NCBI RefSeq assembly: GCF_001306135.1
Contig: NZ_LGKP01000008.1
Coordinates: 124,001 to 188,000, forward strand
Length of the DNA: 64,000 nt
Direction: 5' to 3'
Source: Herpetosiphon geysericola
Lineage (GTDB): Bacteria; Chloroflexota; Chloroflexia; Chloroflexales; Herpetosiphonaceae
Under the pieces are notes generated by a model, which saw only the letters and a program-made list of their open reading frames with translations, had not been told where the DNA came from and did not search any database. The translations under genes and the position numbers were made by a program. Of this stretch, positions 36,389-56,139 are shown one piece after another. Every line of letters begins with the position of its first letter. Positions within the stretch are counted from its first letter, which is position 1.

Positions 36389-37084
36389 ATGATGCTGAAC
36401 CCTGCTTTGGCCCAACTCAAATTATTGCAACTTGCCGATAGCGCCTTGCCAATTGGCTCAACCGCCCATTCGTATGGCGTTGAATCGTTGGTGGCCGAGG
36501 GCCAACTTGGCGTGGCTGGCCTCGGCCAGTTTCTGCACGCCTTTGTGCAGGAGAGCGGCCAACTTGAAGCCTATTTGGCCTATCAGGCTTGGCGATTGGC
36601 TGATGTGAGTGCATTTGATCAGGCTTGGCTCGATTTGAACGATCAGGCAGCGGCCTTCAAGCCAGCCCGCGAGAGCCGTCATGCTAGCGCTGTGCTTGGT
36701 CGACGTTTGTTAAGTTTGGCCTTGCAACTAGAACCCTTGCCACGTTGGCATCAAGCCAGTAGCCTCGCCCAAACCCAGCAGATCGAAACTCACCATAGCT
36801 GTGTGTTTGGCATGGTTGCAGCTGGCTTGAGAATTGAGGCCGAGGCCATGCTTGTAGCCTTATTGCAACAAATGACATTAAGTTTAATTTTGGCCTGCCA
36901 AAAAATTTTGCCGCTTGGCCAAGTGCAGGCCCAGCAATTGTTATGGCAGTTGCATCCAAGCATTCAAGCGGTGGTTGCTCAAACCCCAAGCACCTCGTTT
37001 GCCGACCTCGTACCATGCAGCATTGGCTTAGATGGTGCGAGTATGCGTCACCCCTTGTTGGGGACGCGCCTGTTTATAAGTTGA
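36389..37084 (+). CDS. ureF: Urease accessory protein UreF
   Basis: A 231-residue protein opening the urease operon. It is a UreF by 'LLQLADSALPIGSTAHSYGVESLV' and the C-terminal 'STSFADLVPCSIGLDGASMRH'. It works with UreD and UreG in loading nickel on the apo-urease. ATG 36389 (or 36392) has no ribosome-binding site, and a TATACT lies only 7 bp upstream. A leaderless transcript is possible, or the real start is elsewhere. Its stop overlaps the next start by 1 bp. Confidence 0.92.
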   Translation: MMLNPALAQLKLLQLADSALPIGSTAHSYGVESLVAEGQLGVAGLGQFLHAFVQESGQLEAYLAYQAWRLADVSAFDQAWLDLNDQAAAFKPARESRHASAVLGRRLLSLALQLEPLPRWHQASSLAQTQQIETHHSCVFGMVAAGLRIEAEAMLVALLQQMTLSLILACQKILPLGQVQAQQLLWQLHPSIQAVVAQTPSTSFADLVPCSIGLDGASMRHPLLGTRLFIS

Positions 37085-37947
37085 TGCAAACACTGTCGCG
37101 CCTTGAGCGCATGCATGGCCATTTGGCGCTCGATTTTACGCTCAAGCAGCAACGCACGCGTTTGATGGTGCGCGAACATCGGCCACCATTGCAGGTTGTG
37201 CGCGATTTTGGGCTGGCTGATGGCACCAGTTTTGTGCATTTGCATAATGTTGCTGGCGGCGTGTTGGCGGGCGATCAGCTGACTACTACAATCAATTTAG
37301 CCGCCTCAACCAAAGCCCAACTAACCACCACCAGCTCAACGCGAATCTATCGCAGCGATGGCGAGCAAGTGGCTTATCAAGCGGTGCAGGCCAATTTGGC
37401 CGAACATAGCTTGTTGGAATATTGGCCAGATACGACGATTCCATTTGCTGAGAGTGTGTATCAGCAACAGACCCGCATCGATTTGGCGGATGATGCTGGG
37501 TTATGTTGGTGGGAATTTCTTGCGCCTGGCCGCGAAGCCTATGGCGAGCGCTTTGCTTATCGCCGGCTGCGTTTGGATTGCGATATTTATGCCTTGGGTC
37601 GGCCATTATTGCTTGATCGCATGCGTTTGCAACCAAGCCTGCAACAGCTCAATAATCCATTGTATTTTGGCAACTACAGCTATTTGGCTACGGGCTACAT
37701 CTGTCGGGTTGGGCTGGATGCTGGCCTGTGGAAAGCCCTCGAAGCCGAATTAATGGCGTTTGCTGCGAGCCAAACCAAGCTTGGTCGCTGTTTGTGGGGC
37801 GTGAGTTGTTTGGCTGCTCATGGCTTGGTGATTCGCGGCCTCAGCAGCAACAGCCGCGATCTGCTGGCGACGGCATTTGAATATTGGCGCTTTGCCAAAC
37901 AAGCCTTGTATGGCACAAGCCCGAATCTGCCGCGCAAAATTTATTAG
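37084..37947 (+). CDS. ureD: Urease accessory protein UreD
   Basis: About 287 residues if ATG 37084 is used. The upstream frame is open to 36943 but would overlap ureF deeply, and UreD homology begins around 'GHLALDFTLKQQRTRL'. Conserved features include 'FVHLHNVAGGVLAGDQL', 'AQLTTTSSTRIYRS' and 'WWEFLAPGREAYGERF'. It is the scaffold that binds apo-urease and passes nickel from UreG. It is coupled to ureF by TGATG overlap. Confidence 0.93.
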   Translation: MQTLSRLERMHGHLALDFTLKQQRTRLMVREHRPPLQVVRDFGLADGTSFVHLHNVAGGVLAGDQLTTTINLAASTKAQLTTTSSTRIYRSDGEQVAYQAVQANLAEHSLLEYWPDTTIPFAESVYQQQTRIDLADDAGLCWWEFLAPGREAYGERFAYRRLRLDCDIYALGRPLLLDRMRLQPSLQQLNNPLYFGNYSYLATGYICRVGLDAGLWKALEAELMAFAASQTKLGRCLWGVSCLAAHGLVIRGLSSNSRDLLATAFEYWRFAKQALYGTSPNLPRKIY

Positions 37948-51692: not shown

Positions 51693-53018
51693 TTAGGCTC
51701 GCCCAAACATGCGCCCAAGCACGCCGCGCACCACTTTGGGCCGGAGCAAGGCTTCTGGGCCTGCTAACAGATGCATCACATCTAAAAAGGCTTGGTAAAT
51801 TTCGGTCGATTGCGCGCTGAGCCAAAACACATGCTCGGTATACCATTGCAAAAAGCGAATTTTTGGGCTACGTGAGCCTGGCATTCCTTTGAAGCGCAAG
51901 GCCTCAGCTTGAGTGATGAGCCATGGAACTTCGATAATTTTTTGGGTCTGCTTGAAAAAAGCTTGGGCAAGAGTTGCGGCTTGTTGGCCTTGGGCCGAAG
52001 CCAGCACCTGATCGAGTGCCTGAGCCTCTTTGCATGCTAAAGTCATGCCTTGACCAAAGACTGGGTCAACGCTACATAAGGCATCGCCAAGCACCAAAAA
52101 GCCTTGCGGAAAGCGTTTAAGCTTGTCATAACGTTGAAAAACTTGTTGCGGATAGCCAAAGCGCACAGGCTCGCTGACTGCTGTAGCTTCGGCCAAGGTG
52201 GTATAAATATCGGGCACTGGCAGATTTTTGACAAACTCCAACACATCAGCGTTGGTTGGGGTTGGGTGCTGGCCGAGATAGCCAAACAGCGTCACAATCC
52301 AATGCTCGTCGTCGATTGGCGCAATAATCGCGCCGCGCGGCGAATTTTTCGAAGGGTGACATGCTAAGCATTGCCAATTGCGTGGCGTAGCAGTTTTTTT
52401 GAAAACCTGACTTACATAGACCAAATCGATCAGCATCACTTCTTTGGTGGGCGTTTGATAGCCAGCAGCTTCGAGCCATTGACCAGTACGCGAACCACGG
52501 CCAGTTGTATCAACCACCAAGTCGGCAGCAATTTCGCTGCTTTGCTCGGCTTGATTGACCAACACGCCAGTTACCTTAGTTTTGCTGGCATCGAACAGCA
52601 ATTGCTCGACTTTCGTTTGGCCGCGAAACTCTATCTTAGGATGTTGGCGCACATACTCGCGAATGCGGCTTTCGAGGGTTGCCCGAGCTTGAGGATAAAA
52701 GCTGATGCTGCATGGTTGGCGAGTTTTCCACGAGCCAGCTTGAAACCATTGCACATCGCGCGACCAATTGAGCTGTGGCACGCCTGCGGCGTTTAAATCG
52801 CTGGTGAAGCTTGGAAAATAATGCTGAAGTACATTAAAGCCACCAGTTAATAAAATATGCACATGGTTCGCTTGGGGTACGCCTTTGCGGGGCTGGGTTG
52901 TTGGATCCAAGTCATCGCGCTCAACGATAATCACCTTTTGAAAATGGTTGGCTAAGGCGCGAGCCGCGACTAAGCCCGCGATACTGGCCCCAATCACGAC
53001 CGCCTGTTGTCGTTGCAT
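51693..53018 (-). CDS. FAD-dependent monooxygenase-like oxidoreductase
   Basis: A 441-residue flavoprotein with an N-terminal GxGxxG-type motif 'VVIGASIAGLVAARALANHFQKVIIVERDD', a central 'ADLVVDTTGRGSRTGQWLEAAGY' and FAD-binding 'FPQGFLVLGDALCSVDPVFGQGMTLACKEAQAL'. This resembles geranylgeranyl-reductase/tryptophan-halogenase-like hydroxylases. ATG 53018 has AGGAG 6 bp upstream. The last about 60 residues are a helical extension. The substrate is unknown and no pathway genes adjoin. Confidence 0.85.
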   Translation of the reverse strand: MQRQQAVVIGASIAGLVAARALANHFQKVIIVERDDLDPTTQPRKGVPQANHVHILLTGGFNVLQHYFPSFTSDLNAAGVPQLNWSRDVQWFQAGSWKTRQPCSISFYPQARATLESRIREYVRQHPKIEFRGQTKVEQLLFDASKTKVTGVLVNQAEQSSEIAADLVVDTTGRGSRTGQWLEAAGYQTPTKEVMLIDLVYVSQVFKKTATPRNWQCLACHPSKNSPRGAIIAPIDDEHWIVTLFGYLGQHPTPTNADVLEFVKNLPVPDIYTTLAEATAVSEPVRFGYPQQVFQRYDKLKRFPQGFLVLGDALCSVDPVFGQGMTLACKEAQALDQVLASAQGQQAATLAQAFFKQTQKIIEVPWLITQAEALRFKGMPGSRSPKIRFLQWYTEHVFWLSAQSTEIYQAFLDVMHLLAGPEALLRPKVVRGVLGRMFGRA

Positions 53019-53305: not shown

Positions 53306-53752
53306 ATGCGTTGGTTAACTAAATTGGTTCTGCTTATGAGCCTTAGCACTTTTTGGAGTGGCTGTGCGCAACAATCTGAACGTTCAGCATCCATGGCAAC
53401 GAATGATCCTGTGACCGTGCAACTTGATATGACTGCGGGCATGCCTCCACCAACGTGGCAAATGTCAGCTACCCAACAGAGTGAATTTTTCACCATCCTT
53501 CAGCAACTTACACCAGTAGAGGCTAGAAAAGCCTTTGATAATTTAGGCAATCGAGGGTTTGTTGTTACCACCATGAATCCCGCCCGTACAATTCGGGTTC
53601 AACAAGGATTTGTTTGGATCATAGGCGATAACTATGAACGGGTGTTTAGCGATCAGCATAATGATCTCGAACGTTTTTTGCTCCTCAGTGGTCAGCCAAC
53701 CTTGGAGCCTGCACTCTATACAATGTTGGAAAAAGGGATTGGCCAAAACTAA
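53306..53752 (+). CDS. Uncharacterised small lipoprotein
   Basis: A 148-residue protein with a clear lipoprotein signal 'MRWLTKLVLLMSLSTFWSGCAQQ' (lipobox Cys20). The mature part has 'MPPTWQMSATQQSEFFTILQQLTPVE' and 'LGNRGFVVTTMNPARTIRVQQGFVWIIGDNYERVFSDQHNDLERFLLLSG'. I recognise no family. It stands alone and its 3' end overlaps the convergent NUDIX gene by 4 bp. Confidence 0.75.
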   Translation: MRWLTKLVLLMSLSTFWSGCAQQSERSASMATNDPVTVQLDMTAGMPPPTWQMSATQQSEFFTILQQLTPVEARKAFDNLGNRGFVVTTMNPARTIRVQQGFVWIIGDNYERVFSDQHNDLERFLLLSGQPTLEPALYTMLEKGIGQN

Positions 53753-54453: not shown

Positions 54454-56139
54454 ATGGCTCGCTCGTTTCAAGCTCTGATTCCGCGCCTGCGGCTGCATGC
54501 TGGTTTGGCGCTTTTGCTCTACGTTACAACCCACCTGCTGAACCATGTTTGGGGAATCTTTGGCCTCGAAGCCTTGGAATCGGCGCGCCGATTTTTTCTA
54601 GGTTTTTGGCGTCATCCAGCAATTTTTTGGGTTGTGCCAGCAAGTTTACTGGTGCATATCGTCTTATCGGGCTATAAATTACTAACGATCACCAATTGGC
54701 GGCGCTTGCATTGGAACGAATGGCTACAACTGAGCTTAAGCCTGATGATGCCCTTGCTCATTAGCTCGCATGTTTATGTGACGCGTTTTGCTACCCTCTT
54801 GTATGGTGTGCGCGATACCTATAGCTATGTGTTGCTTGGCCAAATGACAATCGCAATCGATCTGTATTTGATGCTGGTGGTGGTTTGGTTGCATGGCAAT
54901 CTTGGTTTGATGAGCTATTTATGGCATAAACCATGGTTTCGCCGGATTAAACAACCCTTGCTGATTGCCCAAATTGTGATTCCCTTGCTTGCCATGGTTG
55001 GGATCATTGTCGCCCATCGCGAGGTGAATCAGCTTAAACAAGACCCAGCATGGCTCGCCAGCGTGATGCAATTTACCAACCCAAACAATGTAGATTTGGT
55101 GGCTGCCTCAAGCAATTTTATGGCGCGATTCGGCGCAGGCTATGCAGCTATCTTATTGGGTTTGGGTGGCGGTCGGGCTTTGGTGTTGCGTTTACGGCGC
55201 AAGCATTATCTGATTACGGTGGAATATAAGGGCATTGCCACAGTCACAATTCCGCCTGGCACCAGCTTGCTTGAAGCTAGCCTTGCCAATGGCATTCCGC
55301 ATGCCCATAGTTGTGGCGGTCGCGGGCGTTGCTCAACCTGCCGAATCGAAATTATCGAAGGCGCTAAAGCGTTAAATTCGCCGAATGAAACCGAGCAACG
55401 CTTGCTCAAGCGCTTTGGAGCTGGCAGCGATATTCGCTTGGCATGCCAAACGATTCCAACTGGCGCGTGTGTTGTGCGGCCATTATTACACCACCATGAT
55501 CGCGCCCAACTAGGCGCGCCAACCATGATTAGCCATGGCGCAGATAAGCAAATTGTGATTATGTTTGCCGATTTGCGCGGCTTTACCACGCTTTCCGAGG
55601 GCAAATTGCCCTATGATACGGTTTTTATTCTGAACCAATATTTTCAATCGATGGGCCAAGTCATCGAATCCAATGGTGGCTATCTCGATAAATTTATTGG
55701 TGATGGGATTATGGCTTTGTTTGGCTTGGAAGGCACTTTAGAGCAAGCTTGTCATAATGCACTGGCAGCGGCCCAAGCCATGGCGCATCAACTCGACGTG
55801 CTCAATCAGCGTTTGCAAGACGATGTGAGCGAGCCGTTGCGCATGGGCATTGGGATTCATTGTGGCCATGTGATTGTTGGCGATTTGGGCTATAAACGGG
55901 CGAAACATCTGACCGCAATTGGTGATGCGGTAAATATTGCTGCCCGTTTGGAAGAAGCCACCAAAACCTTGCAAACCCAATTGGTTGTTTCGCGAGCCGT
56001 GATGCAGCATAGCAGCTTGGATTTGCATGATTTGAGGTTGAGCGAAATTCCGATTCGTGGCCGCAGCCAACCTTTGGAGATCTACTCGATTGAGAGTGCC
56101 AAAAGCCTTGTGCTGGTGCCATTAACCTTGAATAGCTAA
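54454..56139 (+). CDS. Membrane class III adenylate cyclase with 2Fe-2S ferredoxin domain
   Basis: A 561-residue fusion. Residues 1-245 form about six TM helices with several membrane histidines ('YVTTHLLNHVWG', 'LLVHIVLSGY', 'LISSHVYVTR'), recalling succinate-dehydrogenase-type cytochrome b anchors. Residues 250-350 form a plant-type ferredoxin with 'HAHSCGGRGRCSTCRIEI' and a later Cys in 'RLACQT'. Residues 365-545 form a cyclase domain with both metal aspartates ('FADLRGFT', 'FIGDGIMALFG'), Lys in 'LDKFIGDG', Asp in 'TAIGDAVN' and Asn/Arg in 'NIAARLE'. All catalytic residues are present, so it probably makes cAMP in response to redox state. Confidence 0.9.
   Translation: MARSFQALIPRLRLHAGLALLLYVTTHLLNHVWGIFGLEALESARRFFLGFWRHPAIFWVVPASLLVHIVLSGYKLLTITNWRRLHWNEWLQLSLSLMMPLLISSHVYVTRFATLLYGVRDTYSYVLLGQMTIAIDLYLMLVVVWLHGNLGLMSYLWHKPWFRRIKQPLLIAQIVIPLLAMVGIIVAHREVNQLKQDPAWLASVMQFTNPNNVDLVAASSNFMARFGAGYAAILLGLGGGRALVLRLRRKHYLITVEYKGIATVTIPPGTSLLEASLANGIPHAHSCGGRGRCSTCRIEIIEGAKALNSPNETEQRLLKRFGAGSDIRLACQTIPTGACVVRPLLHHHDRAQLGAPTMISHGADKQIVIMFADLRGFTTLSEGKLPYDTVFILNQYFQSMGQVIESNGGYLDKFIGDGIMALFGLEGTLEQACHNALAAAQAMAHQLDVLNQRLQDDVSEPLRMGIGIHCGHVIVGDLGYKRAKHLTAIGDAVNIAARLEEATKTLQTQLVVSRAVMQHSSLDLHDLRLSEIPIRGRSQPLEIYSIESAKSLVLVPLTLNS

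Follow-up and report, generated by a model that had tools for sequence, protein, structure and literature searches.

What signal does an adenylate cyclase answer to when it is fused to a membrane domain rich in conserved histidines and to a ferredoxin? The question is raised by a gene in a 64 000 nucleotide stretch of the Herpetosiphon geysericola genome (referred to here as the window). The reading that we consider likely is that its product is a redox-regulated adenylate cyclase of the CyaC type, in which a di-haem anchor would respond to the membrane quinone pool and pass its redox state on as cAMP.

The gene and its soluble modules

The gene is a single intact ORF, which opens with an ATG and runs through 561 codons to its stop (Table 1). 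A GGAG-like motif was noted by eye approximately 10 bases 5′ of the ATG, and the N-terminus, MARxFQALIPRLRLHAGL, is common to all six Herpetosiphon copies, that of the window included. The protein is 97 % identical to the copy in H. giganteus DSM 589, 92 % to that of H. llansteffanensis and 87 % to that of H. aurantiacus DSM 785. Codon differences from the H. giganteus copy number 20, 6 and 100 at positions 1, 2 and 3, respectively, and an excess at the third position was also seen against the other Herpetosiphon copies (five compared in all). Hence, the differences are distributed as in a gene under purifying selection. Scans for promoters and terminators produced no more matches than were obtained with shuffled sequence.

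Table 1. Features of the fusion gene, numbered from the first base of the window
Feature	Position	Strand	Evidence
Whole gene, 561 aa: anchor, 2Fe-2S ferredoxin and class III adenylate cyclase fusion (probable CyaC type)	54454..56139	+	
Six-helix membrane anchor, residues 1–251, predicted di-haem b SQR/QFR C-subunit fold	54454..55206	+	AlphaFold2, fold search
H27 codon, predicted haem ligand, helix 1	54532..54534	+	81/81
H68 codon, predicted haem ligand, helix 2	54655..54657	+	81/81
H106 codon, predicted haem ligand, helix 3	54769..54771	+	81/81
H147 codon, predicted haem ligand, helix 4	54892..54894	+	81/81
2Fe-2S ferredoxin domain, residues ~254–345; predicted ligands C287, C293, C296 and C331	55213..55488	+	Fer2, 81/81 cysteines
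Class III cyclase catalytic domain, residues ~362–546	55537..56091	+	Guanylate_cyc, VIA Z 26.3 to 1wc1

The two soluble modules were recognized by Pfam as Fer2 (residues 262–336, E 2.7e-12, 46.9 bits against a cut-off of 21) and Guanylate_cyc (residues 365–546, E 5e-22, 78.8 bits against a gathering cut-off of 21.9), and no family scored above its cut-off in the anchor (about residues 1–250). A Presenilin match there (E 0.063, 12.5 bits against a cut-off of 34.3) was dismissed as chance. The AlphaFold2 model of the full-length protein, built with 81 family sequences, has a pLDDT of 86.7 and a pTM of 0.56. The relative placement of the domains in it is uncertain, and the linker between ferredoxin and cyclase (residues 347–358) has a pLDDT below 50. 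The last anchor helix, residues 215–251 in this model, runs into the ferredoxin domain within a few residues.

Conservation was assessed in an alignment of 81 rows, made up of the window protein, 77 named loci and the additional loci L047, L012 and L013. Loci cut by contig ends (L107, L111 and L142) and those repeating named loci (L044–L046 and L009–L011) were left out, and two frames that have no anchor (L048 and L049) were entered in the tree only. Pfam detected Fer2 and Guanylate_cyc in all 81 members though, as the query used to collect the rows comprised anchor and ferredoxin, only the presence of the cyclase is an independent finding.

The four cysteines of the middle domain, spaced C-x5-C-x2-C-x34-C in the window protein, are found in every row. 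This spacing, together with sequence matches to ISC ferredoxin, Ferredoxin-4 and putidaredoxin, places the domain with the adrenodoxin/ISC type. Whereas ISC ferredoxin, putidaredoxin and adrenodoxin are free carriers, here the ferredoxin is one domain of a probable sensor.

The cyclase residues are almost as well conserved. D373 and D417, which we take to be the metal residues, are found in 81 and 80 of the 81 rows, K413 and T487, presumably responsible for adenine (ATP) selection, in 73 and 79, and N494 and R498, presumably also catalytic, in 76 and 81. The window protein has all six, making cAMP the likely product. Among solved class III structures the cyclase model best matches that of the soluble CyaC of Spirulina (Arthrospira) platensis (1wc1; rmsd 1.7 over 186 aligned residues, 35 % identity). 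The match is limited to the catalytic domain, and the gene name shared with the S. meliloti protein considered below is a coincidence. Catalytic residues have been lost in some family members (L146, L205, L207 and L208) and, thus, some anchors may have no active cyclase to drive.

The membrane anchor

The anchor is predicted by AlphaFold2 to consist of six long transmembrane helices (about residues 2–36, 60–78, 87–117, 132–156, 162–194 and 215–250). The first four of these each carry one of the invariant histidines listed in Table 1, and histidine accounts for four of the nine invariant columns in the anchor-only alignment, which argues that this conservation is not due to chance. N30 is also invariant (81/81), and a fifth histidine, H31, is kept in 79 of the 81 rows. 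The four histidines and the four ferredoxin cysteines are likewise intact in all 16 full-length copies of a separate, hand-picked Hyphomicrobiales alignment, and in the copy on the Rhizobium etli plasmid p42e. The claim in the earlier note that one chain unites membrane histidines, a full set of ferredoxin cysteines and an intact cyclase was borne out, the histidines and cysteines being present in 81/81 rows and the six catalytic residues in the window protein.

One histidine ligand on each of helices 1–4 is the pattern of the di-haem b C subunits of QFR and SDH. As the list from a fold search with the full-length model was filled by cyclase matches, the anchor was modelled by itself (pLDDT 92.7, pTM 0.88). 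With this model, the top five Foldseek rows were all SQR/QFR C subunits (Chloroflexus SDH 9lay, three Wolinella FrdC entries and Desulfovibrio gigas QFR) at a probability of 0.99–1.00, with the next row at 0.28, though the E-values for these subunits were weak (0.03–0.5, none below 0.001). The best six rows from VIA-align were again all SQR/QFR C subunits, with Z of 14.4–11.1, in a method where a best Z of about 14 is within reach of mostly helical models that match nothing clearly, and an rmsd of 3.1–3.9 over 181–203 residues. The next row was STEAP2 at Z 6.0. This gap in Z, and the occurrence of one family alone at the top, argue against an artefact of helical bundles. The fold search is the strongest evidence on the anchor, and points to the fold of the di-haem b C subunits (2bs3, 5xmj, 9lay); unlike these, the Herpetosiphon anchor is fused to a ferredoxin and a cyclase.

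Kinship with SdhC at the sequence level was also sought. The NCBIfam model for SdhC b558, TIGR02046, aligned to the anchor in the correct register (16–167 to 12–187), at a non-significant E of 0.27 and at 10.8 bits, which is under its curated cut-off of 96, and the anchor is therefore not filed as SdhC. A local hhalign comparison of the anchor with a profile of three SdhC sequences returned a probability of 4.6 % and a score of 24.4, compared to 19.3 with the profile reversed and at most 20.2 in 100 column shuffles, and was two helices out of register, placing anchor helices 1–2 on SdhC helices 3–4; a global run was likewise out of register. A sequence-level proof of descent from SdhC was, hence, dropped. 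The genome encodes a separate, genuine SdhC (228.3 bits against the cut-off of 96) that is close kin of 9lay_C (E 8.6e-60), and a Pfam scan of the four genes nearest to the fusion gene found neither SdhA nor SdhB.

The loops on the inside, with helix ends set and charges summed by hand, contain 10 basic residues and 1 acidic residue, compared to 5 of each on the outside, which fits an anchor with both termini inside. With the N-terminus so placed, H27 and H106 lie in the outer halves of their helices and H68 and H147 further in. In the modelled fold an outer haem would probably sit between H27 and H106 and an inner haem between H68 and H147. This order matches that of the haem ligands of Wolinella FrdC, which we take to be H44/H143 and H93/H182.

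Distribution and other layouts

The family to which the protein belongs is widespread, and the rhizobia, from which CyaC was described, are among its principal hosts. A pattern-based scan of the genomes of named species recovered 415 stretches with an anchor-ferredoxin relative, some of which may be ferredoxin-only matches, and the best 80 were retained. The frame is continuous through all three modules in 77 of the best 80, and the remaining three are cut by contig ends. By title, the best 80 of the 415 are mostly alphaproteobacterial, with Beta- and Gammaproteobacteria, Rokuibacteriota, Myxococcota, Nitrospinota, Binatota and Chloroflexota also represented. In the order of L146, which is labelled Xanthobacteraceae and so falls in the Hyphomicrobiales, 77 of 297 genomes (counted by hand) include a match that spans anchor and ferredoxin in one piece.

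Within the Chloroflexota, ten of 400 drawn genomes encode anchor and ferredoxin, namely the six Herpetosiphon and four others, and in a search of 60 genomes of relatives the full protein was found in six, all Herpetosiphon and the genome of the window among them. The latter, of 6.14 Mb, contains 18 further matches, of which 17 are to the cyclase part of the query and the other is to its ferredoxin part; none is accompanied by this anchor. In a quick tree the Herpetosiphon copies, borne on a long stem, branch outside a cluster of 73 rows (SH-aLRT 92) that takes in the four other Chloroflexota copies. The two sets thus fall apart, as they might after horizontal transfer, but monophyly of all ten Chloroflexota copies was not rejected (p-AU 0.217), and long branches lie beside Herpetosiphon.

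Relatives are also found on plasmids. At least 80 % of the protein is covered in 152 of 393 matching records, and the 40 of these among the matches listed are all Rhizobium replicons; the R. etli p42e copy is 38.2 % identical over 92 % of the query. When the anchor alone was the query, 139 records matched, none with a coverage of 80 %, and the matches listed mostly begin at residue 34. The first helix with its histidine is nonetheless present in the R. etli copy. No relatives of the whole protein were found in viral contigs.

Residue K413 is replaced in 10 of the 16 aligned full-length Hyphomicrobiales copies, by Q in L196–L201 and L209, by A in L205 and L207, and by S in L208, and product or activity may differ in these; Q occupies this position in 8 of the 81 family rows. 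The modules also occur in other layouts. Proteins of 245–278 aa consisting of the anchor only are found in Hyphomicrobiales (L213:2953-3687, L215:2833-3567 and L214:2812-3645, all on the minus strand). They include the four histidines and N30/H31, no ferredoxin or cyclase part could be aligned and, in L213 and L215, the gene comes after one for a CobW-type GTPase, with the ends touching. Two further genes (L205:2878-4041 and L206:2893-4377, both minus strand) encode anchor and ferredoxin and no cyclase domain, with the Pfam run made on the L205 copy. They retain the four histidines and four cysteines, have Ala in place of H31, and adjoin a gene of approximately 673 aa that in L205 includes mechanosensitive-channel domains. 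The two Chloroflexota frames that have no anchor combine ferredoxin and cyclase (L048:880-1845, minus strand) and ferredoxin, cyclase and Rieske domains (L049:394-1866, minus strand). At E 0.001, all 81 members were without a Pfam match in this part of the protein, and the anchor appears to represent a family of sensor anchors that lacks a Pfam description.

Redox input to the cyclase

Sinorhizobium meliloti is a root-nodule bacterium and Herpetosiphon a gliding predatory one. Purified CyaC from the former reportedly also carried a binuclear iron-sulfur cluster, and is said to have a tetra-histidine signature with one histidine on each of four helices. Excerpts of a published account describe S. 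meliloti CyaC (SMc01818) as a class III cyclase whose six-helix domain binds two haem b, in what is likely the arrangement of di-haem succinate dehydrogenases and fumarate reductases; ubiquinone oxidizes or reduces the haem and affects cyclase activity (PMC10463352). Excerpts of two further papers agree (PMC9552081, PMC13259868), and all three cite Wissig et al. 2019 (doi 10.1111/mmi.14251). The Herpetosiphon protein resembles CyaC, as so described, in its N-terminal six-helix domain, in the four histidines on four helices and in the class III cyclase, as well as in the predicted di-haem b SDH/QFR fold of its anchor, and has a 2Fe-2S domain between anchor and cyclase. It differs in coming from another phylum, the Chloroflexota, and in probably using menaquinone rather than ubiquinone. 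The context also differs, as genes for TetR and LysR regulators flank cyaC (excerpts of PMC10463352) whereas the Herpetosiphon neighbours encode a Nudix protein and zinc-type dehydrogenases. The TetR and LysR neighbours were used in a search for the S. meliloti gene by the layout of 17 Hyphomicrobiales loci (L196–L212), and the four neighbours scanned with Pfam included neither. Among the open-licence papers listed in searches naming Herpetosiphon, none had a title or opening lines of an abstract that concern this gene.

Menaquinones MK-6 and MK-7 have been reported for H. giganteus Hp a2 (excerpts of PMC3368417). In the genome of the window, a gene of the futalosine route (PF02621) scored 192 bits against a cut-off of 26, and the best scores for MenD (76.7 bits; cut-off 244.2) and Ubi-OHases (77.7 bits; cut-off 224.65) were below threshold. 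The quinone of Herpetosiphon is thus probably menaquinone and, if so, the haem potentials should be lower than in S. meliloti CyaC. The PF02621 gene and another cyclase-domain match, the latter in a 1026 aa frame, are separated by approximately 600 bases (G000:C19:35211-35978 and 36561-37127), which may be a coincidence. Thirteen places in the genome match cNMP-binding domains above the cut-off and could receive cAMP.

In the mechanism that we propose, the anchor would bind two b haems, which would exchange electrons with the membrane quinone pool, probably menaquinone in Herpetosiphon. The redox state would reach the cyclase either directly or via the [2Fe-2S] domain, which follows the last membrane helix and precedes the catalytic domain, and the cyclase, which we infer to be a homodimer, would then make cAMP. 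Haem b binding, the response to quinone and cAMP synthesis are carried over by analogy from the literature on S. meliloti CyaC. An electron path from quinol through the outer and inner haems to the cluster is plausible, as is control of the cyclase by a change in shape of the helices. The suggestion in the earlier note that membrane redox state is turned into cAMP, thus, gains support from the characterized S. meliloti protein, while passage of the electrons through the iron-sulfur centre remains a proposal. Its statement that fusions of this kind are known while their mechanism is poorly described was right just in part, as Wissig et al. 2019, to judge by its title and by the papers citing it, addresses such a protein. 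A stronger form would make electron flow from menaquinol through outer and inner haem to the cluster the obligatory switch of the cyclase, and the anchor a general plug-in redox module that is also used with no cyclase, beside genes for CobW GTPases and mechanosensitive channels; this we regard as tentative and, on balance, doubtful.

Though electrons could instead enter from the cytosol, with a ferredoxin reductase or soluble ferredoxin loading the [2Fe-2S] cluster, the haems draining to quinone and the cyclase reporting the balance between reductant and quinone, this is unlikely. It would suit the resemblance of the cluster domain to ferredoxins of the adrenodoxin/ISC type, for which soluble reductases are the normal electron donors, and the two frames without an anchor indicate that the pairing of a ferredoxin domain with a cyclase does not require the anchor. 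However, none of the four neighbouring genes scanned encodes a ferredoxin reductase. Two, on the other strand, encode zinc-type medium-chain dehydrogenases, a group that includes NADPH:quinone reductases, and a link to these neighbours is possible. Excerpts on S. meliloti CyaC also report it to be quinone-responsive (PMC10463352).

Haem and Fe-S centres often act as sensors of gases or oxidants, or as structural parts. That they do so here, sensing O2 or NO or being just structural, so that regulation does not go through quinone, would be in keeping with this and with H31, which is conserved and has no role in the proposed haem pairing. However, with two pairs of invariant histidines spread over four helices the haems would presumably be six-coordinate, and poor binders of gases, and the predicted anchor fold is that of quinone-reactive subunits, so we find this reading decidedly improbable. 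That the protein is mainly an electron carrier with a vestigial cyclase is hardly credible: a few members have lost cyclase residues (L146, L205, L207 and L208), and anchor-ferredoxin and anchor-only proteins exist, but none of the six catalytic residues checked is missing from the window protein and, among Herpetosiphon copies, the cyclase part has diverged less than the anchor (for H. aurantiacus, at codon positions 1 and 2, 18 changes in 202 codons compared to 68 in 250).

If a CyaC-type redox-regulated cyclase is accepted, the design of a quinone-to-cAMP sensor is already known and has largely been tested on the S. meliloti relative. What is modestly new is that every one of the six Herpetosiphon genomes examined retains the gene, in a genus that probably uses menaquinone, CyaC having been studied with ubiquinone. 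The design would extend to the Chloroflexota and probably to a menaquinone pool of low potential, and would give a natural counterpart with which to compare the ubiquinone-linked CyaC.

The fusion gene is a solitary one. Upstream of it a Nudix gene points away, and downstream two zinc-type dehydrogenase genes converge on it, the nearer of which overlaps its 3′ end by four bases; the fourth of the nearest neighbours encodes a protein with no Pfam match. The nearer dehydrogenase and the Nudix gene also adjoin the gene in H. giganteus DSM 589, H. llansteffanensis and H. aurantiacus DSM 785. In L012 the dehydrogenase at this place is just 50 % identical, and in L013 a lipoprotein gene intervenes. 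A putative lipoprotein of 148 aa (window 53306-53752, plus strand), which has no Pfam match and a lipobox-like SGC seen by eye, is also encoded near the gene in L069, L070 and L013, and is absent from the stretches examined for H. aurantiacus (L071) and L012. The next neighbour, at 51693-53018, encodes a flavoprotein of 441 aa with a weak match to the TIGR01988 hydroxylases.
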